From: a virus
Direction: 5' to 3' (one strand)
IMG/VR virus record: IMGVR_UViG_3300030430_004503
Location: 1 to 40,598 of that record
DNA: 40,598 nucleotides
Under the pieces are notes generated by a model. It did no database searches. It saw only the letters and a program-made list of their open reading frames with translations, and was not told where the DNA came from. Every line of letters starts with the position of its first letter. The stretch's first letter is position 1. The position numbers and the translations under genes were made by a program. This document shows, in pieces, positions 3,001 through 40,598 of this stretch.

Positions 3001-5157
3001 ATAAACCAACCCATCTTCTACACCTGTAAAAATGGTAGATGCTTTACTTGGTTCTCCTGAAATAGTTGCTATAACAGTAGAATCATCTGTGGGGTTTGAA
3101 TCAACAGTTTTTCTATATACTTTAACTGCTCTTAAATCTGTATCACTAGGATTTGTCCAAGTAACTTTAATTGTTGATGGCAGACCTGTAGAAGCAGAAA
3201 GATTTGTCGGCACACTTGGAGCAGTTGTATCTCCTGCAATTGTAATATTTCTTACAGTTGAAAAAGCACTAGAAACAGTTGATGCACTTTTGTGTCTGAC
3301 CCTGACATAATACTGTGCACCTCTTACAGCATTTTCTATTCTGAATGTAGTTTGATCTGGTTCAACTAATGCACTTGATGTTGGTGTTCCAAATGTTCCA
3401 CCCACTCGCCATTGAATCTCAGTTTGGAAAATAGATGATGAACTTGCATTTGTCCAAGTAACATCAACATGACTTTTGATCGTACCATTGTCATTTGTAT
3501 TTCCTTGTGTCAATCCATTTGCTGCTAATGTTGGTGGTGAAATAATAATCAGACCATCATCAGATTGAGAATTTGCTGTGGTTGCAATGTAATCATTACT
3601 TGTATCAAAAGCGAAAACATTGTTATCAATTTCTTTCAGACCAAGTTTGCAAAATACTACAGGGTTTTCCCCACTTGTAGTTTCTGTATTCACAGAGAGA
3701 ACTTCAAAAGTTTTTGCACTAAAACCTAATCTTTCGTTTGTAACATTCACATAGTTTCCAGGTACTAATTCAAGAAATTTAAGTGTTGTGCTTACTTCCA
3801 ACATTTTTGTTCTTCTTTGATAATTTAAATTAAGTTGGCTTAATCTTTGTGCTTGAGAATCATTTGTAACAAATGGCATTTTGACTTCCATTTCTTTTTT
3901 ATAATTACTTGAACTTTCGCCAGTAGGTGTATCTATATTTAGATAATTAACTGCATTACCACTTGAATCTTGACCTGTATTTCTGACAGCAGAATCGGTT
4001 GTTGTAAATTTATTATTAGCATCAACAAAAATTGGTTTGACAGTATTTTGTAATTTTCCCAATGCTGTGGAGTTTGTCATTTGGATTTCTGAGACTAAAT
4101 CATCGTCTGTAATGGTCAGACTTGCTGTTTGAGCAACACCGACAAAGATATTGAATTGTCCATTGACATAAGTGACTTTACCAGCACAACTTGACAAAAT
4201 ACCACTCAAGGCTTCTGACCCTGCTGTACTTGCATTTAAAAAACCATTAGCTGTATATTTATTTTGGTTTGTACCTGAACTGTCAGCAATTTGCACTTCA
4301 CAAGCATTTGCCGCACTAACAAAGTTACCAGCAGAAGAAGTATTATCATTTATCTCATTAAGTGAATCGTTACTTGAAATAGCTTTTAAACCATATCTTG
4401 TATCAGTAAGGTAATCTCTAACAATCAAAGCTGGATTATTTGTCCATGCTGTTTGTGAGTTTCTTGGGTCAAATACTTTTTTACCTTTAACTTGAAAACT
4501 TATTTCTGGCAAACTTGTAAGTTTTTGTTGATCAAAAACCATCTTAAAATGTACATAAGCAATCCCTTTTAAATCATGCTGATCTGTGAAATCTGTTTGA
4601 GCAATCGTATATGGATTCATTTCTTGGTTGTCAGCACCAAGACCTGATATGAACTGAATCAATCTACCATTTACATCTAAAGCATTTGGATTATCTGTAT
4701 TTGTATATTTAACATTTGTGACTGTACTTACTGTTGCTCCATCAATTGTAGATGTACTTGCTGTTACTTCCTCTTTATTAATAAATATTTTTTCAATGCT
4801 CTGTATTTCATGTCCAGCAACTGCCACAATAATATTTAAATTTGAGTTATCAATACCACTTGCTTTTGCATAAATTATTGTTCCACCAACTCTCGTTTCT
4901 CCATAGATTATTTGTCTTGGAGCTATCCCACTTATTTTTGAAAGTTTTGAACCAAAGTTATCTGCTAACGGATTGTCTTGCTTTTTGGATAGTATGACAC
5001 CTAATGTTGTTAAAACTCCTGCTGTAACAATCTGACCAATATTTGCTGCAAAAAAGCCACTAAGTGCAAATGAACCTGTAGTAATTATTGTGCTTATTGC
5101 TAAACCAACTGTTGCAAAAAGTGCGGCTTTTAATCCTGTTTCAAGTGCCTTAGCCAT
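1..5157 (-). CDS. Tail tip/host-specificity protein (J-like) with FN3 domains and long fibre region, 3' end off the window
   Basis: Open without a stop from ATG at 5157 (GGAG just upstream) to the left edge, at least 1719 residues. The N-terminus has small hydrophobic/glycine-rich segments and then about 500 residues resembling the phage J/tip attachment proteins that cap the tail and contact the receptor. Around nt 3540-2940 are two fibronectin-III-like domains (motif TTAPSVPTNLSAS, then TWTNPSDTDLRAVKVYR). A Gly/Asn-rich linker follows, and the rest (nt about 2650-1) is a long run of beta-rich fibre sequence with recurring phrases such as GIGLTSPS, GLGTSSPS and LEIYHDGSN, typical of marine phage fibres. 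It overlaps the 3' end of the upstream NlpC/P60-like gene by 8 nt. Its missing C-terminus is probably the S74 fragment at the right edge. The role is certain at the level of tail tip/fibre; the receptor is unknown. Confidence 0.85.
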   Translation of the reverse strand, partial: MAKALETGLKAALFATVGLAISTIITTGSFALSGFFAANIGQIVTAGVLTTLGVILSKKQDNPLADNFGSKLSKISGIAPRQIIYGETRVGGTIIYAKASGIDNSNLNIIVAVAGHEIQSIEKIFINKEEVTASTSTIDGATVSTVTNVKYTNTDNPNALDVNGRLIQFISGLGADNQEMNPYTIAQTDFTDQHDLKGIAYVHFKMVFDQQKLTSLPEISFQVKGKKVFDPRNSQTAWTNNPALIVRDYLTDTRYGLKAISSNDSLNEINDNTSSAGNFVSAANACEVQIADSSGTNQNKYTANGFLNASTAGSEALSGILSSCAGKVTYVNGQFNIFVGVAQTASLTITDDDLVSEIQMTNSTALGKLQNTVKPIFVDANNKFTTTDSAVRNTGQDSSGNAVNYLNIDTPTGESSSNYKKEMEVKMPFVTNDSQAQRLSQLNLNYQRRTKMLEVSTTLKFLELVPGNYVNVTNERLGFSAKTFEVLSVNTETTSGENPVVFCKLGLKEIDNNVFAFDTSNDYIATTANSQSDDGLIIISPPTLAANGLTQGNTNDNGTIKSHVDVTWTNASSSSIFQTEIQWRVGGTFGTPTSSALVEPDQTTFRIENAVRGAQYYVRVRHKSASTVSSAFSTVRNITIAGDTTAPSVPTNLSASTGLPSTIKVTWTNPSDTDLRAVKVYRKTVDSNPTDDSTVIATISGEPSKASTIFTGVEDGLVYGTNYFFWVRAVDYSGNESALSSSVSGNFVRIRDDDFQGVGGGIFFFNQAGNTNAPDDTAFNNQEGRKPRNEDIVISRNTTDNESVSYKYTGQTPNSEGGGGSFSSTGILLTGDLVGLAGEGVQDILSNTTTGNQGSITFNKHTTKLQTFNQYVATSDNLPQLVIFNQRKQGQTNDSGLNAGSIKFSTNLRDSGTGANLATEQDIAGMFVDMTSRTAGFGLGSANPSAKIKFKVVQAPTTSGGSYNLVDLLTLDRHNGSQLDSSLNIDDADSNGYLHVGDTTVIDASKAFKNVLIADHTPSSTTNRLYQNSGTLFWNGNQVGVGAINSVTNMSDNRVITASGSNSLNGEANLTFDGTTLALTGNQTISGNLTVSGTTTTIDTTNLDVKDKNITLNFGSGDTSSNADGAGITIQDAVSASSDATILWNASADRFDFSHGLRINADDQVFTVGAGGDFSLTHNGTDTFMANNTGHFYITTTSDDKDIIFRTDDGSGGVTSYFRVDGSTENVIYQKNLKLQDNVKAQFGTGNDLEIYHDGSNSYIWEKGTGNLIVRGTEFRLQDSSGNQQLVTNSGAGVGLYHNASIKMETTSTGIDVTGSVTASDDFIGDTFGTSTNKITWSIANNARIFTNGLERFRIDSSGRVLINTSTSLDNNALLHIKGFSSGHAGITMQDQDNTNAKTFFKQTGGATEIQTQNNTAHGIFKVTGWNGSASAEFMRVDGASGRVGIATSSPSQTLDVAGNIQATGSRLISAAFDANHYMRLEGNSSGGVLKGADGGVVTTLVRSYGDSYFNSGGGNFGIGLTSPSKLVHIKNSANNDSNVLLVEAAGATTYGVYLKSAYATEMGRVGALSQADGDLDGASIAFDTFGRDIAFRTDEGSNNSEKARLLADGKFGIGLTAPTSRLTVKSSSTSSQDSAITVQGNANTNAIFKVGEKSADGGRLHMFDGGVEKIAFYTDGTANHISAGNLGLGTSSPSDKLEVYANGADVALRIHEDAGTHT

Positions 5158-22598: not shown

Positions 22599-22925
22599 AT
22601 GAAATTAATTACAAAAAATATTAAAACACTTTTAGAAAAAAATATGTCTTTACCAGAGATGGAAAGAAAACCGTATTTGAAATTATTTAATGCTTATGGA
22701 CAAGGTACATGGCTTTTAAGTGAGATTGATGAAAATAATACTTTTTTTGGTTTATGTGATCTTGGCTTTGGTACACCTGAACTTGGATATGTAACCTTAG
22801 AAGAATTAGAAGCACAAAAGGTTGGTAATTTAAATATGATTGAAAGAGATATGTATTTTTTGCCTGAATACACACTTTCTGAATATGCAGAAAGGGCATA
22901 TAAAGATGGATTTATAAATGCTTGA
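22599..22925 (+). CDS. DUF2958 family protein
   Basis: 108 residues. The sequence order KLFNAYGQGTWLLSEID, FFGLCDLGFGTPELGYVTLEEL, IERDMYF and SEYAERA is the DUF2958 pattern, seen in many plasmids and phages but without known function. Good ribosome site (AAAGGAG). Overlaps the primase-helicase start by 8 nt. Confidence 0.8.
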   Translation: MKLITKNIKTLLEKNMSLPEMERKPYLKLFNAYGQGTWLLSEIDENNTFFGLCDLGFGTPELGYVTLEELEAQKVGNLNMIERDMYFLPEYTLSEYAERAYKDGFINA

Positions 22926-24600
22926 TCTTTCAGATGTAAATATAAAATTAAAACATTACCAAGATGGGACACAAAAAACTAAATGTCCACAGTGCCAACC
23001 ACCGCACAAGATGTCAGACGACCCTTTATCAGTCACAATAGAAAACAATCAGTCTAAAGCTGTTTGGAAGTGCCACCATTGCGATTGGACTGGGTACAAG
23101 TTTGCTGAAAATACTAACTGGTACCCTCAGAAAAAAAATTCTAATACAGAATATGAAAAACCAGTAATACATAATAAAACTTACGAAGATTTTATATATA
23201 GCTTTTTAAAAAAAAGAGGAATATCAATAACAACTGCCAAAGATTTTAAGATATTTTCTGATGGTGACTGGATTGGTTTTCCTTACTTTGATGAAAAATC
23301 AGAAATAGCTAATATAAAATTTAGAACAGTTGATAAAAAATTTAGACAAAAAGCAAATACCAGACCTTTATTTTACAACTACGATAATGTTAGAAACAAA
23401 GATATGGTTTTTATATGTGAGGGTGAAATTGATGTTTTAAGTTTAGCAGAATGCGGATTTAATAATGCAACCACTCTTGCGAATGGTGCACCAAAAGAAG
23501 CTAAATTTAATAAAGATGATGCAAGATTTAAAGCACTCACAGAATCACCTTTATCTGCAACAAAAATTGTGCTATTTACTGATAATGACAGTAGCGGTCA
23601 TGCTTTACATAAAGAACTTTTGCACAGATACGGTAAAGACAAATGTTGGTTTGTAAATATGCCACAAGGCTGTAAAGATGCAAATGAGATTCTCGTAAAA
23701 CATGGTAAAGAATTTTTAAAAAATATTCTTAAAAATCCAATACCTTATCCAGTAGAGGGATTATATCGTGCTTCAGATTACTCTTTACAGGTTCAAGAAT
23801 TATATGATGGAAATTATGTAAAGCCTTTAGAAATAGGAATACAAGGTCTTGATGATATTCTAAAAATATTGCCCTCAACATTTCATACCATTACTGGAAT
23901 ACCAAACCATGGAAAATCTTTATTCCTTGATCAAATACTATTAAGTATTGCAGAAAATCACAATTGGAAATTTGCTGTTTTTTCACCAGAACATTCAACA
24001 CAAATGCATATAAGAAGATTAGTGCAAATGTATAAGGGTAAAAACTTTGATGAAAATTTTGAAAATCGTATGACAAAAGCAGAGCTTGAAGAAGCAATGG
24101 ATTTTATAAATAAACATTTCTTTTTTATAGAAACAAGAAACAGTGTACCTGATATAAATACTATTTTAGGAATTGCAAAATCAGCAATACTAAAACACGG
24201 AATTAATGGTGTAATTATTGACCCTTACAATGAAGTTGATGCATCAAGAATCGGCAACAAAAGAGAAGATGAGCATATCAGAGATTTTATTTCTTTGTGT
24301 AAAAGGTTTGCAAGAGTACATGAAATAGTTTTTTGGTGTGTCGCACACCCAACAAAATTACCAAAATCAACAGATGGTGGCTATGCACCACCGACAGCTT
24401 ATGATATTTCAGGTGCAAGTCATTGGCATAATCAATCTGATGTAGTAATGACAGTGCATAGAGATTTTGATGATAATTCAACAAGAGTAATAACAAGAAA
24501 AATAAGAGAACAAGATCATTACGGTAAAATTGGTGAAGTAAAATTTATATACGATTTTAATACAAGAAGATTTGTACAGCATACTGTAGAAAATTGGTAA
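22918..24600 (+). CDS. Primase-helicase (T7 gp4-like)
   Basis: 560 residues. An N-terminal zinc ribbon has C23, C26, C52 and C55 (CPQC, CHHC). The TOPRIM part spans about 150-270 (FICEGEIDVLSLAECG; LFTDNDSSGH; CKDANEIL). The RecA-like helicase starts near 300, with Walker A GIPNHGKS (about 325-332), FSPEHS, a Walker B VIIDPYNEVD and VAHPTKLP. It should unwind and prime phage DNA; no polymerase gene is present, so host polymerase must be used. It stops one base before the end of the convergent SDR gene. Confidence 0.92.
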   Translation: MLDLSDVNIKLKHYQDGTQKTKCPQCQPPHKMSDDPLSVTIENNQSKAVWKCHHCDWTGYKFAENTNWYPQKKNSNTEYEKPVIHNKTYEDFIYSFLKKRGISITTAKDFKIFSDGDWIGFPYFDEKSEIANIKFRTVDKKFRQKANTRPLFYNYDNVRNKDMVFICEGEIDVLSLAECGFNNATTLANGAPKEAKFNKDDARFKALTESPLSATKIVLFTDNDSSGHALHKELLHRYGKDKCWFVNMPQGCKDANEILVKHGKEFLKNILKNPIPYPVEGLYRASDYSLQVQELYDGNYVKPLEIGIQGLDDILKILPSTFHTITGIPNHGKSLFLDQILLSIAENHNWKFAVFSPEHSTQMHIRRLVQMYKGKNFDENFENRMTKAELEEAMDFINKHFFFIETRNSVPDINTILGIAKSAILKHGINGVIIDPYNEVDASRIGNKREDEHIRDFISLCKRFARVHEIVFWCVAHPTKLPKSTDGGYAPPTAYDISGASHWHNQSDVVMTVHRDFDDNSTRVITRKIREQDHYGKIGEVKFIYDFNTRRFVQHTVENW

Positions 24601-24601
24601 C

Positions 24602-25477
24602 TTAAAAATCTTTTAAATAATCACCTAAAAAATACTTAGATCGCCAACCAAGAGATTCTGTCTTATCGCTAATAACAGGTGCAGTTTGTCTGTTTCCTTT
24701 TTTCGCCTTTGTAAATTTATAGTCCATATTTAACATTTCCGCAATTTCTAAAATGCTGAATGATTCTTTAGAGCCAATGCCAAAACCATCTCCTTTACCT
24801 TTTAAGGCAATATAATGCAGACCGCTTATTATATCTTTTATATGTGTAAAATTTCTTCTTTGTGTGCCCGGTTTTGTAATAGGTAATTTTTTACAACCAA
24901 TTTTTTTTAATTCAATAAATTTAGCAATAACTGTAGCATATTTACCATTTTTTATTTCTCTTTCACCATAAACATTATAAAAATAAGAAATTGCAAAATC
25001 TAAATTGAACCAATCACAATAAGTTTTTACCAGTTCTGTATTTGCACTTTTTGTAAAAGCATAGGGGCTAGTATATTTAGCTGAACCATCGTCACCAAAT
25101 TTTGTACTTGAACCTGCATAAATTAATTTGGCATTATGTTTTTTAACAAATTTAAGAACTTCATATATAGAATTCCAATTGTATTGAAACACTTTATCAA
25201 TATCATCAAAACTTTGCTCAACCCTTGAATATTCCCCAAGGTGAAAAACTAAATCAAAATTAAATAAATAGTGTTTAAAAATATCATTTATTTCTATGGT
25301 TTCGCCACGATAGAAATGACAAAGATTGCTTAGATTTTCTTTTGAGCTTGTAAAATTATTATCTAAACAGTAAACATCATTTTCAAGAACCAATGAATCA
25401 ATTAAATGACTACCAACAAAGCCACAACCACCTGTAACTAAAATTTTTTTATTTTTTAATTTTAAGTTGCATTCCAT
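24602..25477 (-). CDS. NAD-dependent sugar-nucleotide epimerase/dehydratase (extended SDR)
   Basis: 291 residues from ATG 25477; a GTG at 25492 is possible. Rossmann motif KKILVTGGCGFVGSHLIDSL, D in VYCLDNNFT, AGSST, and the catalytic SPYAFTKS (YxxxK) are in order, and NFTHIKDIISGLHYI is the usual substrate-part motif. This is the UDP-glucose 4-epimerase/GDP-mannose dehydratase class; substrate cannot be read. Next to the glycosyltransferase it probably supplies its sugar donor. Minus strand inside a plus-strand operon. Confidence 0.87.
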   Translation of the reverse strand: MECNLKLKNKKILVTGGCGFVGSHLIDSLVLENDVYCLDNNFTSSKENLSNLCHFYRGETIEINDIFKHYLFNFDLVFHLGEYSRVEQSFDDIDKVFQYNWNSIYEVLKFVKKHNAKLIYAGSSTKFGDDGSAKYTSPYAFTKSANTELVKTYCDWFNLDFAISYFYNVYGEREIKNGKYATVIAKFIELKKIGCKKLPITKPGTQRRNFTHIKDIISGLHYIALKGKGDGFGIGSKESFSILEIAEMLNMDYKFTKAKKGNRQTAPVISDKTESLGWRSKYFLGDYLKDF

Positions 25478-26327
25478 AATTATTTGGTTCACCTTTAGGT
25501 TGCCAATCTTTTTTTCTGACCAACTTATTTTTTTTCATAAAAGGTTTGTAATCGCAGTGATGGTGCCATCTTTTATATTTAAAACTCAATTTACAAACAT
25601 CACCATGTGTATCAACCATCATTTGGCTTTTTGCCAATGTGCCATCTTTATAAAGCTGATCAGTATTTCCACCTTTCATAACTTGAGTTGTAACCTTATC
25701 TTGAAGCAATGCATTGAATAAAACAGTACACCAACCCTTTTTAAGCATATCTAAAGAAAGAATTGTGTCTTCATTATATCTGCCCCTCCATCTAAAAGGC
25801 ACATCAGTTCTTATTAAATTACAGCTGTATATTCTTGAGTTTACTGTAATTGGTGGTTTTGTAACTCGTGATGGAAAAAAATAATCGTAATGTGGACCAG
25901 CCATTGCTACATTTTCATACCTTGCACAAAAGTCTTCAATAATTCTTAAAGGTGCTCCATTCGCAACCCTTATTTTTCTATTTTTATGCATTCTTCTAAA
26001 ACCCATAATATTGTCGTCCATTATCCAATGCCATTTATGCCCCTCTTTTTCTGCAGTGTCCCAAATAAAGTTCCTTGCAGGGCCACTTCCTGTAGTCTTA
26101 GACTGTCCTAAATCGTCGCAGAGGTCGTATTTTTCTTTATACGACATATCTAGTTTAATAAGTTTTTTCTCGTCTCCTACCTCGTTTAAATAGTTATCAT
26201 ATTCGTCAGGCTCAACAACAAGTCTGTAAGGAATGCCTAAGCTGTCCCACCATTTGCTTGTTAATCTTGATTCCCACCTACCCTTGCTTGGTATAAATAT
26301 CGGATATTGAGGGTCAGTCTGATTCAT
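25449..26327 (-). CDS. TAGT-type glycosyltransferase (TET-associated family)
   Basis: 292 residues. YPIFIPSKGRWESRLTSKWW, YRLVVEPDEYDNYL, SGPARNFIWD and HKWHWIMDDNIMGFRRMH fit the TAGT family, GT-A-like enzymes described in phages where they glycosylate hydroxylated or hydroxymethylated DNA bases. DDN is the likely metal/nucleotide-sugar site. No TET/JBP oxygenase, hydroxymethylase or DNA methyltransferase was found in the window, so the acceptor is unknown. Overlaps the ParB-domain gene by 14 nt and the SDR gene by 29 nt, so one operon. Confidence 0.82.
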   Translation of the reverse strand: MNQTDPQYPIFIPSKGRWESRLTSKWWDSLGIPYRLVVEPDEYDNYLNEVGDEKKLIKLDMSYKEKYDLCDDLGQSKTTGSGPARNFIWDTAEKEGHKWHWIMDDNIMGFRRMHKNRKIRVANGAPLRIIEDFCARYENVAMAGPHYDYFFPSRVTKPPITVNSRIYSCNLIRTDVPFRWRGRYNEDTILSLDMLKKGWCTVLFNALLQDKVTTQVMKGGNTDQLYKDGTLAKSQMMVDTHGDVCKLSFKYKRWHHHCDYKPFMKKNKLVRKKDWQPKGEPNNYGMQLKIKK

Positions 26328-26934
26328 ATTGACGGTCTTTTGTAGTAAATTCAGGTTGTGGTGGGTACCAAATAAATTTTGTTTTTTCTGTTAATTTTTG
26401 ATTCACCAGTTTTGCAAATTCTTGCCTATCATCTTCGTTAGCAAAATGTACCAGTAAAGTTTTTTGTGGCATTAAATTTTCTTGTTCATAGTCTGGCATA
26501 TCAACCCATTCAGTGCTTGGATCATCAACAACTTGCCCAATATTTAAAATCGGCAATATTTCCATTTCTTCAAAAGCCAAAACATTTAAATCAAAACCCT
26601 TTTCATTAAGTTCTCTAATTTGATCCCACAGTAAATTTTCGTCCCATGTAGAATTTGAAGCAATTTTATTATCAGCAATAACCAATGCTTGTTTTTGTTC
26701 ATCTGTTAAATTCTCTGCTTTTACAACAGGCACACTATCTAAATTTAATGTTTGTGAAGCCATATACCTGCCGTGACCTGCCAATATTATATTTTTTTCG
26801 TCAACCAAAATAGGGTTTAGAAATCCAAACTCATCAATAGATTTTGCAATTTGTGCTATTTGTTCTTCAGTATGTTTTCTAGGATTATTTTTATAAGGTT
26901 TTAAATCATTTATTTTTGTTTGAATTATCTTCAT
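26314..26934 (-). CDS. ParB/sulfiredoxin-fold domain protein
   Basis: 206 residues. N-terminal ParB-like nuclease domain: INDLKPYKNNPRKHTEEQI, SIDEFGFLNPILVDE, ILAGHGRYMAS and LNLDSVPVV; the later LTDEQKQALVIADNKIAS is the helical part. The C-terminal LLVHFANEDDRQEFAKL and KFIWYP form a small tail seen with phage DNA-modification genes. In phages such proteins accompany DNA methyltransferases or TAGT enzymes. Not a partition protein in this setting (no ParA, no centromere repeats). Confidence 0.82.
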   Translation of the reverse strand: MKIIQTKINDLKPYKNNPRKHTEEQIAQIAKSIDEFGFLNPILVDEKNIILAGHGRYMASQTLNLDSVPVVKAENLTDEQKQALVIADNKIASNSTWDENLLWDQIRELNEKGFDLNVLAFEEMEILPILNIGQVVDDPSTEWVDMPDYEQENLMPQKTLLVHFANEDDRQEFAKLVNQKLTEKTKFIWYPPQPEFTTKDRQYESD

Positions 26935-26935
26935 A

Positions 26936-27142
26936 TTAATCTAAAAAAAAATCATTTGGTGTTACTTTGCGATTTGTAGTTTCGTAAATTTTTATCATAT
27001 CGTCTTTCCTTGGTATTCTAATGCCGAGAATCCATTTTGCTAAAGTTCCTTGAGGTATTTTTTTATTGTGTTTTGTTTGAATTTCTTTAATGAAATCTTT
27101 TTGGGTCATTGAATTATTAATTAAATATTCTTTTAATTTCAT
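26936..27142 (-). CDS. Small HTH regulator (XRE/Cro-like)
   Basis: 68 residues. LKEYLINNSMTQKDFIKEI, IPQGTLAKWILGIRIPRKDD and MIKIYETTNRKVTPNDFF form a single Cro/CI-type helix-turn-helix. It reads divergently from the RecB-like gene; the 58-nt gap between them has an ATTATAAT palindrome that can serve as -10 in both directions. Likely represses this region; may also bind the repeated element. A lysogeny role is not supported as no integrase is present. Confidence 0.75.
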   Translation of the reverse strand: MKLKEYLINNSMTQKDFIKEIQTKHNKKIPQGTLAKWILGIRIPRKDDMIKIYETTNRKVTPNDFFLD

Positions 27143-27143
27143 G

Positions 27144-27172
27144 TTTATTTTATTCCTTTATGGGATTATAAT
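27144..27172 (+). promoter_or_regulatory. Rightward promoter before recombination genes
   Basis: TTTATT (27144-27149), 17-nt spacer, TATAAT (27167-27172). The spacer carries ATTCCTTTATGGG, which has the ATTCC-N5-GGG shape of the repeated element. The -35 is weak. Confidence 0.5.
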
Positions 27173-27200
27173 GGTAGAAACTTATAAAGGGAAGAAAAAA

Positions 27201-27995
27201 ATGAAAAATGTATTTGAACATCATGGGGTTGCATATTTATCTCCATCATCTATAAACAAATTCAGATCAGACCCTGCAAAGTGGCTAGTAAATATTGCTG
27301 GTTATAGAGACAAAGCATATAGCCCTGCAATGACTTTTGGTAACATTGTTGAGCTTGGAATTACCCATGCTTGTATCAAGCCTGAATCTGATATTGAAGA
27401 AGCTATCCATATTTGTATGGATAGATATGAAGTTGTCCATAAAGAAATTACAGAAGCTGGTCATGCAAAAGATTATGACTTTTATATGTGTGCAAAAAAA
27501 CAAGCACAGATACCTGAAACTTTAAGATTGGCTATACCCTGTTACAGGAGTTTTGGTGAGCTTGAAAAACCACAACATAAGGTTGAATATAAGTTTGATG
27601 ATTTACCTATTCCAATCATTGGTTATGTAGATATGGAATATTATGATTGTATTAGAGACATTAAAACAACAGGCACAGCAGTTAAAGAAAGAAGCGATCA
27701 TTTAAGACAAGTTTCTTTTTACAGTTTAGCTACAGGCAAAATTGCAATGTTAGATTACATTTATGTTACCCAAACAAAGAAAGAATTTATAACAAGACAT
27801 GTTCACGATGTTGAAACACACATCAAGGACATTTACCGAATTGCTAAAAAAATGATGCAGATGTTGTCATTTTCTAGTGATATACATGAAGTGGCTCGTA
27901 TGTCTTGCCTAGTGCCTGACACCACGAATGAAAACTTTATGAAACAATGGGGACCTCAAGAAATTAAAGGTGCTCAAATTTTATTTAAGGAGTAA
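27201..27995 (+). CDS. RecB/Cas4-like PD-(D/E)XK nuclease
   Basis: 264 residues from ATG 27201 (AAAGGGAAG upstream). LSPSSINKFRSDPAKWLV and AMTFGNIVELGITHACI are the opening motifs of RecB-like nucleases; HKVEYKFDDLPIPIIGYVD and CIRDIKTTG (about 130-157) give the D...D-x-K catalytic set, and HLRQVSFYSLATG the motif IV helix. Paired with the ERF gene, it is expected to resect dsDNA for strand annealing. Confidence 0.85.
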   Translation: MKNVFEHHGVAYLSPSSINKFRSDPAKWLVNIAGYRDKAYSPAMTFGNIVELGITHACIKPESDIEEAIHICMDRYEVVHKEITEAGHAKDYDFYMCAKKQAQIPETLRLAIPCYRSFGELEKPQHKVEYKFDDLPIPIIGYVDMEYYDCIRDIKTTGTAVKERSDHLRQVSFYSLATGKIAMLDYIYVTQTKKEFITRHVHDVETHIKDIYRIAKKMMQMLSFSSDIHEVARMSCLVPDTTNENFMKQWGPQEIKGAQILFKE

Positions 27996-33538: not shown

Positions 33539-34018
33539 TTAGTCTTTGGAAGAATTAGATGCTCCGAAGTAAAACGAGATAATAGCACTAGCTAGACCAC
33601 CCAAATAACCAAGTACTAGATTTATAAGTGCTTCTGAATTCTGCTCTGGCGGTTGCAGAGTAACTAAAAATATATAACCGAGAAAGCCACCTATTGTTGC
33701 AATACCAATTATTCTTGCTGTCCAATCTTTTGAAAAATGTTTTCTAGCATCTTGTTTTTCTTGTGCTTCAAGAGCAAAAATATCTACACCAATTTCTGCC
33801 ATATCTTTTTCAAATTGCAACTCTGCTTCTTTTAATTTAAGAGAATCTTCTTTTGACAAAGGTTTACTTAATGCAGATTGAACTGTTTTAGGATTTGTGT
33901 CTGATAAACCAAGTTTCTCTGCAATCATTTCAGCAGCCATTCCACCCATAGGGCCACCGAGTGCTGTTCCTAATGTAGGTGCTACTGCACCCAAAACACC
34001 TTGTAATAGTTTTTTCAT
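33539..34018 (-). CDS. Holin-like membrane protein
   Basis: 159 residues: a Gly-rich amphipathic head (GAVAPTLGTALGGPMGGMAA), an acidic helical middle (LKLKEAELQFEKDMAEI), and two spans (RIIGIATIGGFLGYIFLVTL and ALINLVLGYLGGLASAIISF) before FGASNSSKD. This arrangement recurs in marine phages as the putative holin (GTA_holin-like). It shares four bases with the cyclase stop. Confidence 0.75.
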   Translation of the reverse strand: MKKLLQGVLGAVAPTLGTALGGPMGGMAAEMIAEKLGLSDTNPKTVQSALSKPLSKEDSLKLKEAELQFEKDMAEIGVDIFALEAQEKQDARKHFSKDWTARIIGIATIGGFLGYIFLVTLQPPEQNSEALINLVLGYLGGLASAIISFYFGASNSSKD

Positions 34019-35751
34019 TTTTTAAATGTATAAATTTTTAGTTTATCTTTTTTACCTTTGACCACTATATCATCTAATTTAACCAAATCAAAAGAACAAT
34101 TCTTTGCAGTTTCTTCTCCAATTAAAACATCTTTACCAACAACCTTTGTATTTGATTCAAGTCTTGCGGCAACATTACAAGGGTCACCAATAAGACTAAA
34201 AGCAAACCTATCAGATGCACCAAAGTTTCCTGCTAAAACTTCACCTGAATTAACCCCAAGTCCAATTGCTATTTTTGGTATGTTTTCTTCTTCAAACTTT
34301 TTGTTAAGTTCAGCTATATTTTTTTGGATTTCTTTTACAGCTTTAAGAGCTAAATCGTGGTGATCTGGTTGAGGAATAATTGTATTGAAATGAAACATAC
34401 CTGCATCACCAATAAATTTATCTGTTACACCAAAATATTTATTAACTGCTTTGACTTGAACATCTAAAACATTGTTCATAATATAACTGACTTTTTCAGG
34501 TTCTATTGATTCTGATAATTTTGTAAAGCCTCGTAAGTCTGAAAAAATTATTGAGCAATCTACTCTTTTTCCATTAATCTGACATAGTTCAGGATTGTCT
34601 TGTAACTTCTTAACCATTCTTTTATCTAAATATTTACCGAACTGGTTCTTAATTTGTTCTCTAAGTTTCCATTGTTTTCTAAAGGAGAAATAGTAAGAGG
34701 TACTTGCAATTATAAATTGTCCGATTAAAGTCCATGTAACATCTATTAAAACTCCATTTTTAATTGTCCAAAAGCCGTAAAAAGCTGTAGAAAGAAAGAC
34801 CAAAACACTAAGGGTAAGACTAAGGGTAATACCAAAAGAACTCGTTAGAAGCCAAATAAGCAGCCCAGAAAAGATAAAAATAGCTATTTCTAGGGTTAAA
34901 TGCCAATTTGGTATGTAAGGACTGTTTTCTAAAAGCATTGTTTCTGCTAATGCAGTTTGAATTTTATGCGGTTCTAAAAGTCCAGCAGGGGAAGAAATGG
35001 TCGGCATAATTCCTGAAGCAGTAAAACCTATGAAAACAAATTTATCTTTGACATCTAATTCTTGCAGATTTGTTTCACTTGTTTCAATCCAAGATATAAA
35101 TTTCTTTCCTTGTGAATCTGTATTTATAGGCGGTAAGCCTTGCACTCTGACTTGCTCAATTCCTAATTCGTTTGTTTTAATAATATAAGTATCAGCACCA
35201 ACCAAGATTTTTAAAACTTCAATTGCAAAAGAAGCAACCCAACCATCAGGAGTTTGATATAAAAGCGGTATCTGTCTTACAAGATTATCAACATCAACAG
35301 ATGCAGATGCAAGACCCTCGTTTGTGCTTGATCGTAAAGGTTCAACATTATTAATTGTCCCTTTTATAAAATTTGTCTTTACATCTTCACCAAGAATTAC
35401 CGTGCCAACAGTCTGTGGATAAATATTGTTTTCATATTCAAAAATAGATAACACAGAATTTGACAGACCAAGGACTTCTGCAAATGCTTCGTCTCCACCT
35501 AATCTATCTTTATGAGGCATAGCAAGAACCCAGCCCACACCTAAAGCTCCTGCATTTATTATTTCTGCATGGATTTTAGCTAACTCCAATCTTGGTATTG
35601 GATAACCACCTTGTTCATCAACAAATTTTTCATCAAGGTTTATTACAGTAAAATATCCTGATTCTTCAAACTTTGGAACAAAATAATCAAAGGTTCTAAG
35701 TTTAATAACCTGTTGATAAGTATGTTGAAAAAGCAGAGGTAAACTCAGCAA
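34015..35751 (-). CDS. CHASE2-domain adenylate cyclase (class III)
   Basis: 578 residues from the only usual start (TTG 35751). CHASE2 sensor at about 20-270 (periplasmic), three spans at about 284-303, 308-328 and 332-354, a linker helix, then the cyclase from 400: FSDLRGFT (metal Asp405), DKFIGDAGM (Lys445, metal Asp449), and SLIGDPCNVAARLE with Asp523, Asn526, Arg530. Lys and Asp are the adenine-selecting pair, so product is probably cAMP. All catalytic residues are kept. The frame is open upstream and would add NKLFPLFFVLLLSLPLLF, the first anchor expected in CHASE2 proteins, but no ATG/GTG is there; an ATA after AGGA near 35784 could serve. Not usual in phages. Confidence 0.9.
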   Translation of the reverse strand: MLSLPLLFQHTYQQVIKLRTFDYFVPKFEESGYFTVINLDEKFVDEQGGYPIPRLELAKIHAEIINAGALGVGWVLAMPHKDRLGGDEAFAEVLGLSNSVLSIFEYENNIYPQTVGTVILGEDVKTNFIKGTINNVEPLRSSTNEGLASASVDVDNLVRQIPLLYQTPDGWVASFAIEVLKILVGADTYIIKTNELGIEQVRVQGLPPINTDSQGKKFISWIETSETNLQELDVKDKFVFIGFTASGIMPTISSPAGLLEPHKIQTALAETMLLENSPYIPNWHLTLEIAIFIFSGLLIWLLTSSFGITLSLTLSVLVFLSTAFYGFWTIKNGVLIDVTWTLIGQFIIASTSYYFSFRKQWKLREQIKNQFGKYLDKRMVKKLQDNPELCQINGKRVDCSIIFSDLRGFTKLSESIEPEKVSYIMNNVLDVQVKAVNKYFGVTDKFIGDAGMFHFNTIIPQPDHHDLALKAVKEIQKNIAELNKKFEEENIPKIAIGLGVNSGEVLAGNFGASDRFAFSLIGDPCNVAARLESNTKVVGKDVLIGEETAKNCSFDLVKLDDIVVKGKKDKLKIYTFKK

Positions 35752-35783: not shown

Positions 35784-36890
35784 TTAATCCTGAGTAATTC
35801 TTATTACTGATGAACTTCCCCCATTTATTTTTACAATTTTTGACACACCATCTTGAATAAATATTACTGTATATGACCCATCAATATTCAAATCAACTCT
35901 TGCGAAATTGGAAACTTGCCTTTGTAAAGTTATAGTATCACCAACAATAAACGATGTGATTTGTGTTTCTAAATCTTGACCTAATTTTGTTCCTGATAAG
36001 ATGGTAGAATTGACATCTTGCAGAGCATCTTGTTCTTCTTGATCAAAGTCATCAATAATCTGTAATAAATCCTCCAGAAAATTTGTATCAAGAGCATCAT
36101 AATCAAGTTCCGTAAATTCCAGACTATCTTCTTCTAATTCATCTTCTGCTAAATAATCAATATCAAGATCACTAAAATCTAATATAGAATCGCTTTCGCT
36201 TGAATAAACTGTTTCTTCTTCGCCAAACTCTTCTTCAGGTGGAGATACAATCAACATGTTATCAATCATATCTAAAGATAAATCAAGTATTACAGGAACA
36301 CTTGGAGCACTTTCAAAAACATCTACTGTTGTTGCTTGATAAGGTTTATTAAGAGTGACAGTGCCAATAGCTGTTGTAACCAGTATTTCACCACTAGGTA
36401 AACCGCTATCATCAGGTAATAAAATAATGAGAGAACGCCCCAATTCATCAACAGTACAGGTAAAATCTGTACCTCGTATTGTAATGTTGGCAGTTGGAGT
36501 GCTGAGCTGAATATTTTGTTTGGCAATTTTTCCTAATTTACTTGTTATAAATCTCGCTGTACCACTTGCAAATTTGAGAGCCATTTTGCTTTTTGATGGG
36601 TCTGGGTCAAAGATATATTCATCAATCACCAACTTGCTATGTTCTGTTAGTCTTACTTTTGAATCATCAAGAAAGGTAATAGCCATACGACCATTACGAG
36701 TAATAGCTTGATCATTAGATGCTATCGCAAAATCTAATTTAGCTTCATATGATTTATCTCTTAATACTTCGGCATTACCTTTTAATTCAGAAACTCCACC
36801 AATATTAACAACTGGTAGAGCCCCCTGAATCGGACTGTATAATGCACAGGTTAGAATTATTGCCGTTTTGTATGATTTTAAGATAGTCAC
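35784..36890 (-). CDS. Secreted FecR-domain protein
   Basis: 368 residues from GTG 36890. Signal peptide SYKTAIILTCALYSPIQG, then the FecR domain about 30-170: ITRNGRMAITFLDDSKVRLT, SKLVIDEYIFDPDPSK, FASGTARFIT and TANITIRGTDF. Next is a very acidic region (about 210-290, runs of Asp/Glu), then a C-terminal beta part. In other bacteria such lone FecR proteins are often next to CHASE2 cyclases and may be their periplasmic partner. The first 86 nt overlap the end of the curlin-like gene. Not a TonB sigma regulator here. Confidence 0.85.
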   Translation of the reverse strand: MTILKSYKTAIILTCALYSPIQGALPVVNIGGVSELKGNAEVLRDKSYEAKLDFAIASNDQAITRNGRMAITFLDDSKVRLTEHSKLVIDEYIFDPDPSKSKMALKFASGTARFITSKLGKIAKQNIQLSTPTANITIRGTDFTCTVDELGRSLIILLPDDSGLPSGEILVTTAIGTVTLNKPYQATTVDVFESAPSVPVILDLSLDMIDNMLIVSPPEEEFGEEETVYSSESDSILDFSDLDIDYLAEDELEEDSLEFTELDYDALDTNFLEDLLQIIDDFDQEEQDALQDVNSTILSGTKLGQDLETQITSFIVGDTITLQRQVSNFARVDLNIDGSYTVIFIQDGVSKIVKINGGSSSVIRITQD

Positions 36891-37533
36891 GAGCTAATGT
36901 ACTTGATTGAGTAATGTTATAAGTATTTGAATTTCCATCAATATCCATGTAAAGGTAGCCACTATCGCTTGATGAAGTTCCACTGTAACCATCTAAATTT
37001 GCTGTAATTGTATTTGAGCTTCCATTTATATCTATAAAATTTATAGCATTGGAATAATCTAGGTCAAATGTAAGTGTATTTGAATCACCCAAAATAACCC
37101 AGTCCAAATCTAAATAAGAAGCACTATCATCTTCGCCAATATCTACATCAAAAGTATTTGTGTTTCCTGTTACCTGAATATTCATATTCACGAAATCTGA
37201 AGTTATCAAACCTGTGCTATTCATCAACATATCGTAAACATTAGAATCACCAGTAAACTCAAAAAAGCCTGTAAAACTTTCACCATCAATAGCATCTGAT
37301 CTAAAGATATTTGAAGAACCAATTTGATTGATGTCCAAAGTCATAGAAGCACCATCTAAATCTAGTGCAGTTAAAGTACCAGCAACTGAATCCGTACCAC
37401 CAATTAAGTTATTAGAACCTAATTGTTCAAGATCAATAGAAGCATTATTTCCATTTTGATCAATATATATTTCATCATCTGCTGACAAAACACCTATTAA
37501 AAATAAAACACTTAAAACTAATTTTTTATTCAT
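36805..37533 (-). CDS. Secreted curlin-like repeat protein (candidate amyloid)
   Basis: 242 residues from ATG 37533 (GGAAAT before it). Signal peptide KKLVLSVLFLIGVLSA. The mature part has about eight repeats of the curlin kind: IYIDQNGNNASIDLEQLG, LDINQIGSSNIF, FTGDSNVYDM, VTGNTNTFDV, ILGDSNTLTF, INGSSNTITA, DGNSNTYNI and IIQNGNNSNL, with spacing near 22-25. The first and last repeats keep Gln and Asn as in CsgA/CsgB; the middle ones have mainly G-x-(S/T)-N. It ends GGSTSC. It is most likely the substrate of the CsgG/CsgF pore next to it. A calcium-binding or adhesin fold cannot be excluded. Confidence 0.8.
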   Translation of the reverse strand: MNKKLVLSVLFLIGVLSADDEIYIDQNGNNASIDLEQLGSNNLIGGTDSVAGTLTALDLDGASMTLDINQIGSSNIFRSDAIDGESFTGFFEFTGDSNVYDMLMNSTGLITSDFVNMNIQVTGNTNTFDVDIGEDDSASYLDLDWVILGDSNTLTFDLDYSNAINFIDINGSSNTITANLDGYSGTSSSDSGYLYMDIDGNSNTYNITQSSTLARDYLKIIQNGNNSNLCIIQSDSGGSTSC

Positions 37534-38326
37534 ATTTCCAAAAACCTCTTTCATAACCTTTATTTATTAATTCAAGCACTGCACCTTCTATTGCTTTTTG
37601 GAGAGCTATTGTTCCACTTTCGTTTTCAGTGTAACCAAATTCCAATTCAACAAGTTCAGTACCCTGCTCAATAAATTTAAAAACATCTTGGGATTTACCC
37701 CAAGAAAAGATAGTCTTTTGGCTAAGAATCTCAATTAAGATTTCACCAGTTGCTACTGAAACCATGCGAAGCGAAACGGTAACTGTATCTTCTCTAAACT
37801 GATCACTTGAACCAATTCCAAGATACCGCGCTCCGACACCACCTGTTCTTATATTTGTATCATAGCTTAGAACTGCTCCCTCAAGCAAGACCCCTGCCAT
37901 GAGAAGAGGACGAAGTGGTTGAGCATCTTCAGTTAATTGTTCCCTTGCTGATCTTATTAATTGACGTTCCTTTGTAAGATTGTCTAAACCTACCCTTTCT
38001 ACAACTGTAAACATTTGACCATTACCAGAGTGTTTTAATGCCCTTATTAAAAGGGCAGATGGGGCTTGTGTAACTGCTGTACTGAATAAAGCAAAAGAAC
38101 TGTTACTTTTTCTTTGACCAGTTTGATCTATAAAAGCATTTGGATATACAGCAACAACAGGTTTGTTCTTTGGTAAAGGTACTTCTAAAAGTTTTTGGTT
38201 GTGGATATGTCCAATCTGAAAGCTATCATCTCTATGATTTATTGCATTATTGGTATTTAAACCAGCACAACTAGAAAGTAAAAGCACCGATAGGCACAGT
38301 AATTTCTGTGGTATTGCCCTCGGCAT
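37526..38326 (-). CDS. csgG: CsgG-like outer-membrane curli secretion channel (lipoprotein)
   Basis: 266 residues from ATG 38326; an in-frame start at 38377 is possible. Lipoprotein signal with lipobox LLLSSC (Cys20). The mature region follows E. coli CsgG closely: VVAVYPNAFIDQTGQRK, FSTAVTQAPSALLIRALK, VVERVGLDNLTKERQLI, LEGAVLSYDTNIRTGGVGAR, YLGIG, VSLRMVSVATGEIL and KFIEQGTELVELEFGYT. It ends just after YERGFW, so the C-terminal tail of the E. coli protein is absent. CsgG is a nonameric pore exporting curli subunits. Overlaps csgF by 56 nt and the curlin-like gene by 8 nt. Confidence 0.95.
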   Translation of the reverse strand: MPRAIPQKLLCLSVLLLSSCAGLNTNNAINHRDDSFQIGHIHNQKLLEVPLPKNKPVVAVYPNAFIDQTGQRKSNSSFALFSTAVTQAPSALLIRALKHSGNGQMFTVVERVGLDNLTKERQLIRSAREQLTEDAQPLRPLLMAGVLLEGAVLSYDTNIRTGGVGARYLGIGSSDQFREDTVTVSLRMVSVATGEILIEILSQKTIFSWGKSQDVFKFIEQGTELVELEFGYTENESGTIALQKAIEGAVLELINKGYERGFWKYE

Positions 38327-38801
38327 CTGTGACTGTAAGAGTGATAAATAATCCATCTGCTGAAACCTCATATTCAATAGTATTTCCCATTAATTCTAAA
38401 ACTCCACTTGTACTTGGAGTTTCACCAAACAGATTATCTACAAGTTGTCTTGACAACTGTGCATAAATTCTGCTTTCTAGGTTTCTTATAAACCTTGCCA
38501 AAGTTGTATTTTCAGCTTCTCTTTTGAGTTCGTCTTGATATGCTTTTATTTCTGCTTCTAATGCTTCTTTTCTATTAAATTCTTGATTCTCAATTGTTAA
38601 ATAATGTGAGCTTGTATTGATACCACTAAATGAGGGTGATTTAAATTTGTGAATTAGCTCGTCTGCTGTAACCATATTTGCAAAAAGCATTACAGCAAGA
38701 AATGGTAAAATAAAAAATGAACAACCTTTATTCTTTTCTACATAGTAAGAATCCAAACCAATTTTTTGATTTTTTGTTTTTTTATTTTTTAAATTAGCCA
38801 T
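38271..38801 (-). CDS. csgF: CsgF-like curli assembly factor
   Basis: 176 residues from ATG 38801; start uncertain as no ribosome site is seen. The likely signal is SFFILPFLAVMLFANMVTA. The mature start DELIHKFKSPSFSGINTSS matches the CsgF head (QFRNPNFGGNPNNG in E. coli) which inserts into the CsgG pore; then an Asn-rich to helical part (LARFIRNLESRIYAQLSRQL) and the C-terminal strands YEVSADGLFITLTVTD and TTEITVPIG. The central helix is longer than in E. coli. Together with csgG it should form the CsgG:CsgF double-constriction channel. Confidence 0.92.
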   Translation of the reverse strand: MANLKNKKTKNQKIGLDSYYVEKNKGCSFFILPFLAVMLFANMVTADELIHKFKSPSFSGINTSSHYLTIENQEFNRKEALEAEIKAYQDELKREAENTTLARFIRNLESRIYAQLSRQLVDNLFGETPSTSGVLELMGNTIEYEVSADGLFITLTVTDAEGNTTEITVPIGAFTF

Positions 38802-38866
38802 GTAAAGAAAATATACCAAAAACCAAAACAAAAGCCTAGAACTAAAAACCAACCAGAAAGTTTCAC
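38789..38866 (-). CDS. Possible 25-residue membrane peptide
   Basis: A GTG-started frame coding for an almost fully hydrophobic peptide (WFLVLGFCFGFWYIFFTW). It fills the gap before csgF and overlaps its start by 13 nt. No ribosome site. AT-rich sequence can produce such frames by chance, so support is weak. Confidence 0.25.
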   Translation of the reverse strand: MKLSGWFLVLGFCFGFWYIFFTWLI

Positions 38867-39535: not shown

Positions 39536-40598
39536 TTAATTTCGTTTATACAGTTTAACCTCTTCTTTGAGTTTTTCAATTTCTTCTTGTTGTTCTTGAA
39601 CCGCCTTTATTAAATGAACAACGAGCTTGGAATAATCCATTTGGTACAAATCATCTTCTTTGGTAACCGCATTTGGTACAATTTTTTCTACCTCTTGTGC
39701 GATCAAGCCCTCGTCAGCTTTACCATTCGCTTTCCAATTAAAGGCTACTGGATTTAGTTTATTGATTACTTTTAGACCTCTAGCATATCCAGTAACATCT
39801 TTTAATCTAGCATCAGATGTTGTGTTATATGAAGTTGCAGAACTTGTTACATTTATCTGACCAACAACTGTATTATTCTTTCTAAACTGAACAGCTACTC
39901 CATCACTTGTTGTTCTGTTAAAAATACCAACAACAGCACTTGCTCTTGTTGCAATAAACAAACCACCACTTCTTGCTTCAACACCAGTTGCTGCAGAATT
40001 TTGAGCAGTTTTGCCAACTAATAAACTAGCTTGATTTACTTGTATAGTATCGTCTGTCAGTATAAGAGGTTTAGCAATATCAAATGGGTCAGAGACTTCA
40101 TCTGAATTTGCAGAAACATAAAACTCCATTTTACCTGAGTTATCGTCTGCCCCATCACCAACCACTCTGATTGAAGCAGAAGCAAAATTTCCGCTACTGA
40201 ACCACTGAATACTACCCTTAGTTACAGATGCACCAGATGTTGTTTGATTGAATTGTAATTTAGCACTATTAGGTTGTGTAATAATAACTGGTGTAGAGAC
40301 AGCTGTAATGCCATCATTTTTTACTTGAAACCTATTTGAACCACCAGTATTTAGTTGTATTTGGTTATTTGTAAATTGAACACTCGTGTCAGTATCACCA
40401 GTATGTAAAATAGAACCTGCAACAGATAGTGAATTGATATTAACTAGATTTCTTGAGCTGTCTATTACAGATGTAGAACCGATTGAAAAAGAACCTGCTT
40501 GAAGTGTTTGAGACTGATTGATTGTTCCAGATGTAAATATGACCCTTTCTGTAGCGGTTAAAACTGTACCTGTTGGAGCTGAAGTTCCTGTATCTGTT
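39536..40598 (-). CDS. Tail fibre C-terminal part with peptidase S74 chaperone, 5' end off the window
   Basis: 354 codons open from the right edge to TAA at 39536. Beta-rich fibre sequence (VINSLSVAG-like phrases, GSIQWFSSGNFASASIRVVG) leads into the S74 intramolecular chaperone: SDARLKDVTGYARGLKVINK carries the Ser-Asp pair used for self-cleavage, then NPVAFNWKANGKADEGLIAQ, VEKIVPNAV and YSKLVVHLIKAVQEQQEEIE with the closing coiled coil. S74 domains trimerise fibres and are then cut off. Very likely the missing end of the fibre at the left edge. Confidence 0.88.
   Translation of the reverse strand, partial: TDTGTSAPTGTVLTATERVIFTSGTINQSQTLQAGSFSIGSTSVIDSSRNLVNINSLSVAGSILHTGDTDTSVQFTNNQIQLNTGGSNRFQVKNDGITAVSTPVIITQPNSAKLQFNQTTSGASVTKGSIQWFSSGNFASASIRVVGDGADDNSGKMEFYVSANSDEVSDPFDIAKPLILTDDTIQVNQASLLVGKTAQNSAATGVEARSGGLFIATRASAVVGIFNRTTSDGVAVQFRKNNTVVGQINVTSSATSYNTTSDARLKDVTGYARGLKVINKLNPVAFNWKANGKADEGLIAQEVEKIVPNAVTKEDDLYQMDYSKLVVHLIKAVQEQQEEIEKLKEEVKLYKRN

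Follow-up and report, generated by a model that had tools for sequence, protein, structure and literature searches.

Gene content of the block

The DNA analysed here (the window) is a virus contig of its own, 40,598 b long (IMG/VR record IMGVR_UViG_3300030430_004503), in which a block of four minus-strand genes at 24602–27142 interrupts the plus-strand replication genes. The block codes for a small helix-turn-helix (HTH) protein, a ParB-domain protein, a TAGT glycosyltransferase and a short-chain dehydrogenase/reductase (SDR), and is probably a cassette for the glycosylation of phage DNA. The limits of the block and the strand and order of its four genes are exactly those given in an earlier reading of the bare sequence (the sequence-only reading). 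Both flanks lie on the plus strand, with a primase-helicase on one side and PD-(D/E)XK/ERF recombination genes on the other. The features are as follows.

24602..25492, minus: SDR of the extended type (NAD-dependent epimerase/dehydratase); Pfam Epimerase PF01370, 9.9e-34
25449..26327, minus: TAGT glycosyltransferase (PF20691), modelled GT-A fold, 292 aa; Pfam 4.9e-38; PHROG 842, 4.6e-47; model pLDDT 91
26010..26018, minus: TAGT D104-D105-N106, presumed DXD-type metal/nucleotide-sugar site; invariant in 30 homologues; role by GT-A analogy
25767..25772, minus: TAGT E186-D187, presumed catalytic-base motif (xED); invariant in 30 homologues; role by GT-A analogy
26314..26934, minus: ParB-domain protein, 206 aa; ParB_N PF02195, 4.1e-11; fold match to Noc/ParB CTPase domains
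26596..26934, minus: ParB N-domain, residues 1–113; common to the ParB partners of TET, Mom, C5-cytosine methyltransferase and PAPS-reductase
26317..26526, minus: ParB C-tail, residues 137–206, proposed TAGT-docking segment; homologous to Aeh1-type TAGT N-terminal extensions
26936..27142, minus: small HTH protein at the slot border, probably a regulator; weak HTH_3/HTH_19 match; PHROG repressor, 3.8e-6
22918..24600, plus: primase-helicase, left slot border and anchor of the sibling search; PHROG 239, 1.2e-89
27090..27995, plus: PD-(D/E)XK nuclease, right slot border; Pfam PDDEXK_1, 2.4e-5

The reading frames of the block overlap or almost touch, as in an operon: ParB and TAGT share 14 nt, TAGT and SDR about 29–44 nt, and HTH and ParB lie 1 nt apart. 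The block is not a chance arrangement, since dozens of viral contigs hold intact homologues in the same order. For the SDR, an ATG at 25477 is a likelier start than the listed GTG at 25492. The nuclease likelier starts at 27201 than at 27090, because the listed start overlaps the HTH gene.

The TAGT glycosyltransferase and its relatives

The TAGT scores 131.6 bits against PF20691, for which the cut-off is 27.5, and its PHROG match is annotated as a beta-glucosyl-HMC-alpha-glucosyltransferase. The structure model (pLDDT 91.4) is that of a GT-A-fold glycosyltransferase, the top matches being GT-A enzymes with a polypeptide GalNAc-transferase in front (6nqt; Z 13.9, rmsd 4.6, 226 residues) and cellulose synthase a close second. 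Foldseek with the model returned distant GT-A matches only, so that the fold is silent on the acceptor, and a sequence search of the PDB gave no TAGT relative. By analogy with GT-A enzymes, the invariant DDN is presumed to be the metal/nucleotide-sugar site and the ED the catalytic base; the 30 homologues in which both are invariant are diverse.

PF20691 is also the family of the T2 and T6 TAGTs. The T6 enzyme (37.2 bits against the same cut-off) has been described as adding glucose to alpha-glucosyl-5-hydroxymethylcytosine in DNA (PMC13216743; PMC13390438). The kinship between the two rests on this common family membership, since an hhalign comparison of the window-type alignment with T6 TAGT is weak (E 0.084), with short matching stretches near the IPS, VVE and IDD/MDD motifs; a tblastn search with the Aeh1 TAGT as query did not reach T6 TAGT. 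T6 has a hydroxymethylase-type thymidylate synthase (TS) gene next door as well as an alpha-glucosyltransferase, whereas the window phage lacks TS-family genes and pairs its TAGT with a ParB protein and an SDR. The nearest isolate-phage relatives, at 45–51% identity, are the TAGTs of Aeh1/PTm1/Kuja type, several of which bear a homologue of the window's ParB tail as an N-terminal extension. Unlike the window, these large genomes have a TS-family gene, and no ParB was found adjoining their TAGT. In a tree, the window TAGT falls in a clade of 58 rows without TET or TS partners (SH-aLRT 81, by a quick method); the tree is used for broad grouping only, because its branches are long and its support comes from a quick search.

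A ParB-domain protein as the constant partner

In nearly all of the 54 viral loci that reach far enough, a ParB gene stands upstream of the TAGT, mostly immediately so. In a wider non-redundant set, 46 of 64 clusters have a same-strand ParB gene no more than 1.5 kb upstream, start and stop often overlapping by about 8 nt, and four further loci (L012, L054, L103 and L107) also have it but were missed by the script, because an extended TAGT frame overlaps ParB by more than 80 nt. Most of the remaining ParB-less clusters consist of long TAGTs of 368–471 aa. The ParB C-tail has homologues in the N-terminal extensions of the long TAGTs from Aeh1, PTm1, 1.076, 1.124 and POP12 (E 2e-8 to 3e-3), and when searched alone against 50,697 phage records it matched TAGT extensions of this type only. 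Gene fusions are seen as well, joining ParB to TAGT in L024 and a glycosyltransferase-like protein to ParB in L037. TAGT relatives, mostly with ParB upstream, also occur on bacterial contigs from several phyla, including Chryseobacterium type strains such as Chryseobacterium gambrini DSM 18014 (L115), and the hosts of related prophages belong to Bacteroidota, Proteobacteria, Acidobacteria and others.

The modelled fold of the ParB protein follows the CTPase domains of Noc/ParB (Z 15.2, rmsd 1.4, 91 residues); ParB folds bind CTP in partition proteins. A Pfam scan of the 206 residues found no central HTH parS-binding domain, and the tail differs. A plasmid-partition gene was considered and rejected, given that this HTH domain is missing and that the protein is a regular partner of modifiers.

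ParB genes beside phage DNA-modification enzymes are known, with their function stated as unknown (PMC12783734), and nuclease/NTPase activity has been reported for ParB-methylase and related proteins (PMC5512222). Among the other phage relatives of this ParB domain, annotation as a DNA methyltransferase is frequent. In the ParB-linked phage DNA methyltransferases and the CmoX-type carboxymethyltransferases, a DNA modifier has a ParB-domain partner as in the window, but the modifier transfers a methyl or carboxymethyl group instead of being a TAGT.

An exchange slot for DNA-modification genes

Sibling phages were found via the primase-helicase, and the slot beside that gene was compared in 80 loci. 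The enzymes that accompany ParB there are TET/JBP (9e-27), Mom (2e-49), C5-cytosine methyltransferase (C5-MTase; 2e-49) and PAPS-reductase (5e-15). The window-type TAGT occupies the slot in 7 loci and ParB with PAPS-reductase in 11; ParB stands with Mom in L144 and L145 and with C5-MTase in L176, and L129 and L155 have a C5-methyltransferase or an N6/N4-methyltransferase with no recognised ParB. In L137, L143 and L130 the slot holds ParB, TET/JBP and a TAGT other than the window type. These cassettes have the slot, a TAGT and sugar-activation genes in common with the window, and in L137 and L143 the order HTH, ParB, modifier is also that of the window; they differ in having a TET/JBP oxygenase, TAGTs of other clades and a different ParB C-tail.

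Several slots have further contents. In L133, L138, L142 and L202, ParB and a profile-confirmed TET stand with genes named by eye as thymine pyrophosphorylase-, small kinase-, GNAT- and class II glutamine amidotransferase-like, which possibly make up a rich thymine hypermodification pathway. Slots with ParB and PAPS-reductase (L147, L148, L152, L159, L164, L166, L184 and L203) often hold a second ParB-domain protein; a sulfur-based DNA modification is possible for such slots.

The HTH protein matches Pfam weakly (8e-4, under the Pfam cut-off). Siblings with a different cassette, or with none, have its gene at the slot border too, and in several enzyme-less slots it is the only gene. Because siblings that lack a cassette can have it as the sole occupant of the slot, it is read as a slot-border gene and looks like a regulator belonging to the slot backbone; a part in the chemistry was rejected on the same ground.

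A comparison of the ParB proteins across these partner classes separates two regions. The N-domains of different classes are detectable by pairwise BLAST in a fraction of 0.74–1.00 of pairs. For the C-tails, the share of detectable pairs is 99% among TAGT partners and 100% among TET partners, but 5% for TAGT–TET pairs and 0% for TAGT–PAPS pairs. A shared N-domain together with a largely partner-specific tail suggests an adaptor, and, with the tail–TAGT fusion added, it suggests that the N-domain handles DNA while the tail holds the enzyme.

The SDR and the changing sugar genes

The translated SDR contains TGGCGFVG (the Rossmann GxxGxxG) and YAFTK (the catalytic YxxxK), and its best PDB sequences are the epimerase 6dnt and the UDP-glucose 4-epimerase 3ehe. 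Against the NCBIfam equivalogs GalE, HldD, UXS and RmlB all scores lie far under cut-off. No product is assigned to it, since the nearest PDB entries are 4-epimerases yet no equivalog cut-off is reached; it is likely a sugar-donor enzyme.

Around ParB-TAGT the sugar genes are exchangeable. A UXS-like SDR is found beside the pair in L010 and L037, a UDP-glucose dehydrogenase in L003, and CTP_transf_like enzymes, closest to heptose-1-P adenylyltransferase and glycerol-3-P cytidylyltransferase, at about 20 loci. GT32-like, GT4-like and GT9 transferases and S-adenosylmethionine (SAM) methyltransferases, including FkbM, also lie nearby in relatives, with one TAGT-methyltransferase fusion. The suggestion of the sequence-only reading that the SDR may make the sugar donor is consistent both with the SDR matches and with this swapping. 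A known parallel is the arabinosyl-5-hydroxycytosine system of RB69/NP, in which an isomerase, an epimerase, a kinase and an NTP-transferase feed the DNA glycosyltransferases (PMC13390438); it has sugar genes as the window does, but uses a TS-family 5-hydroxy-dCMP synthase, whereas the window has none. In two unrelated ParB-TAGT loci a radical SAM/SPASM gene lies directly downstream of the TAGT (L009:5875-6882 and L119:6828-7808).

A probable DNA-glycosylation cassette

We read the block as a self-contained DNA-glycosylation cassette set in a hot spot for the exchange of DNA modifications, with a probability of roughly 0.7. The idea of a DNA-modification block, put forward in the sequence-only reading, gains from the placement of the TAGT in PF20691, a DNA family, and from sibling slots in which ParB stands with undoubted DNA modifiers; no profile match to a non-DNA glycosyltransferase family turned up. 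That DNA is the substrate is our inference, as are the roles of ParB as adaptor and of the SDR as donor-maker and the biological purpose. The ParB-domain protein would act as a DNA-loading adaptor, its NTP-binding N-domain engaging DNA and its C-terminal tail holding the TAGT. The SDR would turn a host nucleotide-sugar into the donor, from which the TAGT would transfer the sugar to a base in the DNA of the phage. Relatives keep ParB-TAGT and exchange the genes that make and decorate the sugar; because of this swapping, the sugar presumably differs between phages, and the purpose of such variation is probably escape from host restriction enzymes and DNA glycosylases.

Several points weigh against this interpretation. 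No recognised cassette enzyme is present in 44 of the 80 sibling loci, many of these contigs being truncated. The adaptor idea is drawn from sequence patterns: the ParB model has a pTM of 0.58 and a low-confidence tail, and the C-tails of the C5-MTase and TET classes, an exception to partner specificity, are similar in 70% of pairs. The model also matches SerK and SbnI (Z 8–9), and ParB/Srx-fold proteins can be small-molecule kinases. GT9, cytidylyltransferase and FkbM methyltransferase are typical of surface-glycan pathways too. Finally, the T6 TAGT adds a second sugar and not the first, so that the chemistry of a lone TAGT lacks an explanation when neither a hydroxyl donor nor an earlier-acting glycosyltransferase accompanies it.

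The presumed acceptor on DNA

Searches with PF12851, PF00303 and PF00145 found no TET, TS-family hydroxymethylase or C5-MTase in the window, just as had been noted from the sequence alone, and the same holds for the whole ParB-TAGT group examined: the small viral records of window type, several of them 40–61 kb, have none of the three. The TS and C5-MTase negative covers 35 records including the window. As positive controls, PF12851 was found in 7 of 7 TET-bearing sibling records, and PF00303 in 5 of 7 isolate phages and 12 of 12 records of the TAGTc clade. In the other TAGT clades an acceptor-maker is regularly at hand, with TET in all seven TAGTb loci and in 4 TAGTc loci, and with a TS-family gene in every one of the 12 TET-less TAGTc records tested. 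Among the Aeh1-type large phages, five of the seven isolate records have a TS-family gene, and two 48-kb Vibrio phages are without. One window-family TAGT, the only one seen with TET, is an exception to the clade rule: a long TAGT on a Winogradskyella contig from a metagenome-assembled genome (L121), with TET and ParB genes nearby on the opposite strand.

With no recognised acceptor-maker, the substrate of the TAGT would be an unmodified base, or else a handle that an unrecognised enzyme or the host provides. Under the first option, a tentative and rather doubtful proposal, ParB and TAGT would need no further enzyme and no prior hydroxylation to glycosylate an unmodified base in double-stranded DNA, and ParB would be a general adaptor with a tail that selects the enzyme to be loaded; if true, this would mean a new DNA-glycosylation chemistry, on an exocyclic amine for instance, in which the sugars can be swapped.

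The second option, likewise a case of DNA glycosylation but a competitor of the direct one, places the sugar on a pyrimidine hydroxylated by the host or by a lineage-specific enzyme that the profiles miss, and is possible though somewhat doubtful. It fits the precedent that the TAGT clades with recognised partners all use TET or a TS-family enzyme, and many small unknown genes are present in which such an enzyme could reside. A 2-oxoglutarate (2OG)-Fe(II) oxygenase occurs in 3 of 19 records (G001, G002 and G003), but it is absent from the window and 15 of the 18 others, and in G001 it is distant from the cassette, by a tail-fibre gene. Radical SAM and N6/N4-methyltransferase genes were found in none of the 19 records, and those small genes that were scanned gave no base-modifying Pfam match. 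Among 17 long genomes, the only near-universal genes are TAGT (16) and ParB (15), and the ParB-TAGT lineages do not all have a third gene family in common; this weakens the option, raised in the sequence-only reading, of an unrecognised enzyme among the small genes. One shared host-made base is also unlikely, because the hosts of related prophages span several phyla.

Unlikely alternatives: surface glycans or a decayed cassette

Alternatively, the cassette might alter a host surface glycan (lipopolysaccharide or capsule) and block superinfection, ParB being incidental. The GT9-, GT32- and GT4-like transferases, cytidylyltransferase, FkbM, UXS-like SDR and UDP-glucose dehydrogenase found beside ParB-TAGT would all suit such a pathway, but the constant partner is the ParB-domain protein, which fusions join to TAGT, the sibling slots otherwise hold DNA-modification enzymes, and TAGT in T6 belongs to a DNA-enzyme family. 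The Pfam scan also recognised no membrane-anchored glycosyltransferase pair of seroconversion type in the cassette. We therefore consider a surface-glycan role unlikely. That the block is a decayed TET-TAGT cassette, its oxygenase lost and its TAGT idle, is very improbable despite the ParB-bearing TET-TAGT cassettes in the same slot of siblings, as the window TAGT belongs to another clade than the TET-linked TAGTs of the slot (the 58-row clade, SH-aLRT 81), the 30 diverse members compared all keep the catalytic motifs unchanged and the reading frames are unbroken.

Relation to known systems

TAGT glycosylation, TET-TAGT cassettes and ParB-linked modifiers are already known, and the ParB-TAGT pairing may already be noted in a 2013 Nucleic Acids Research survey of base-modification systems. 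The apparent novelties are a ParB-TAGT clade that lacks TET and has exchangeable sugar genes, its position in a modification-exchange slot, and the partner-specific ParB tail. Of 753 phage genomes with homologues of T-even-type glycosyltransferases, a 2026 survey counted 288 that have a TAGT without alpha- or beta-glycosyltransferase, and called these potentially novel transferases (PMC13216743). The TAGT-only question raised there is narrowed here to one large clade, ParB-paired and without any recognised acceptor-maker, which therefore predicts that either the DNA chemistry or a hydroxylating enzyme is new. The proposed shared DNA-loading part and partner-specific tail give ParB domains beside phage DNA modifiers a testable role, and prophage copies in culturable type strains make both this and the acceptor accessible to mass spectrometry.

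Other features of the window

The window is not classed as a complete record. Its positions 1–5157 and 39536–40597 (minus) are two halves of one tail-fibre gene, offset in frame by a few bases at a TG-repeat. Since both ends belong to this one gene and the gene order matches a relative, the record probably covers nearly all of a circularly permuted genome. A near-identity search against 50,697 phage genomes gave no match to the window. The promoter and terminator scan was uninformative, with 10 promoter-like sites against 15.2 in shuffled sequence, that is, fewer than in the shuffles.

At 34015–35751 (minus), a single phage protein combines CHASE2 (2.3e-22) with a class III adenylate/guanylate cyclase (1.4e-17), an unexpected receptor-type cyclase that matches a PHROG of unknown function at 1.5e-100. 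Adjoining it, 35784–38852 (minus) encodes homologues of FecR (1.1e-10), the curli secretion channel CsgG (2e-51) and CsgF (2.7e-15), and counterparts of this region, alike in size and order, are present in the relatives G003, G005 and G006.

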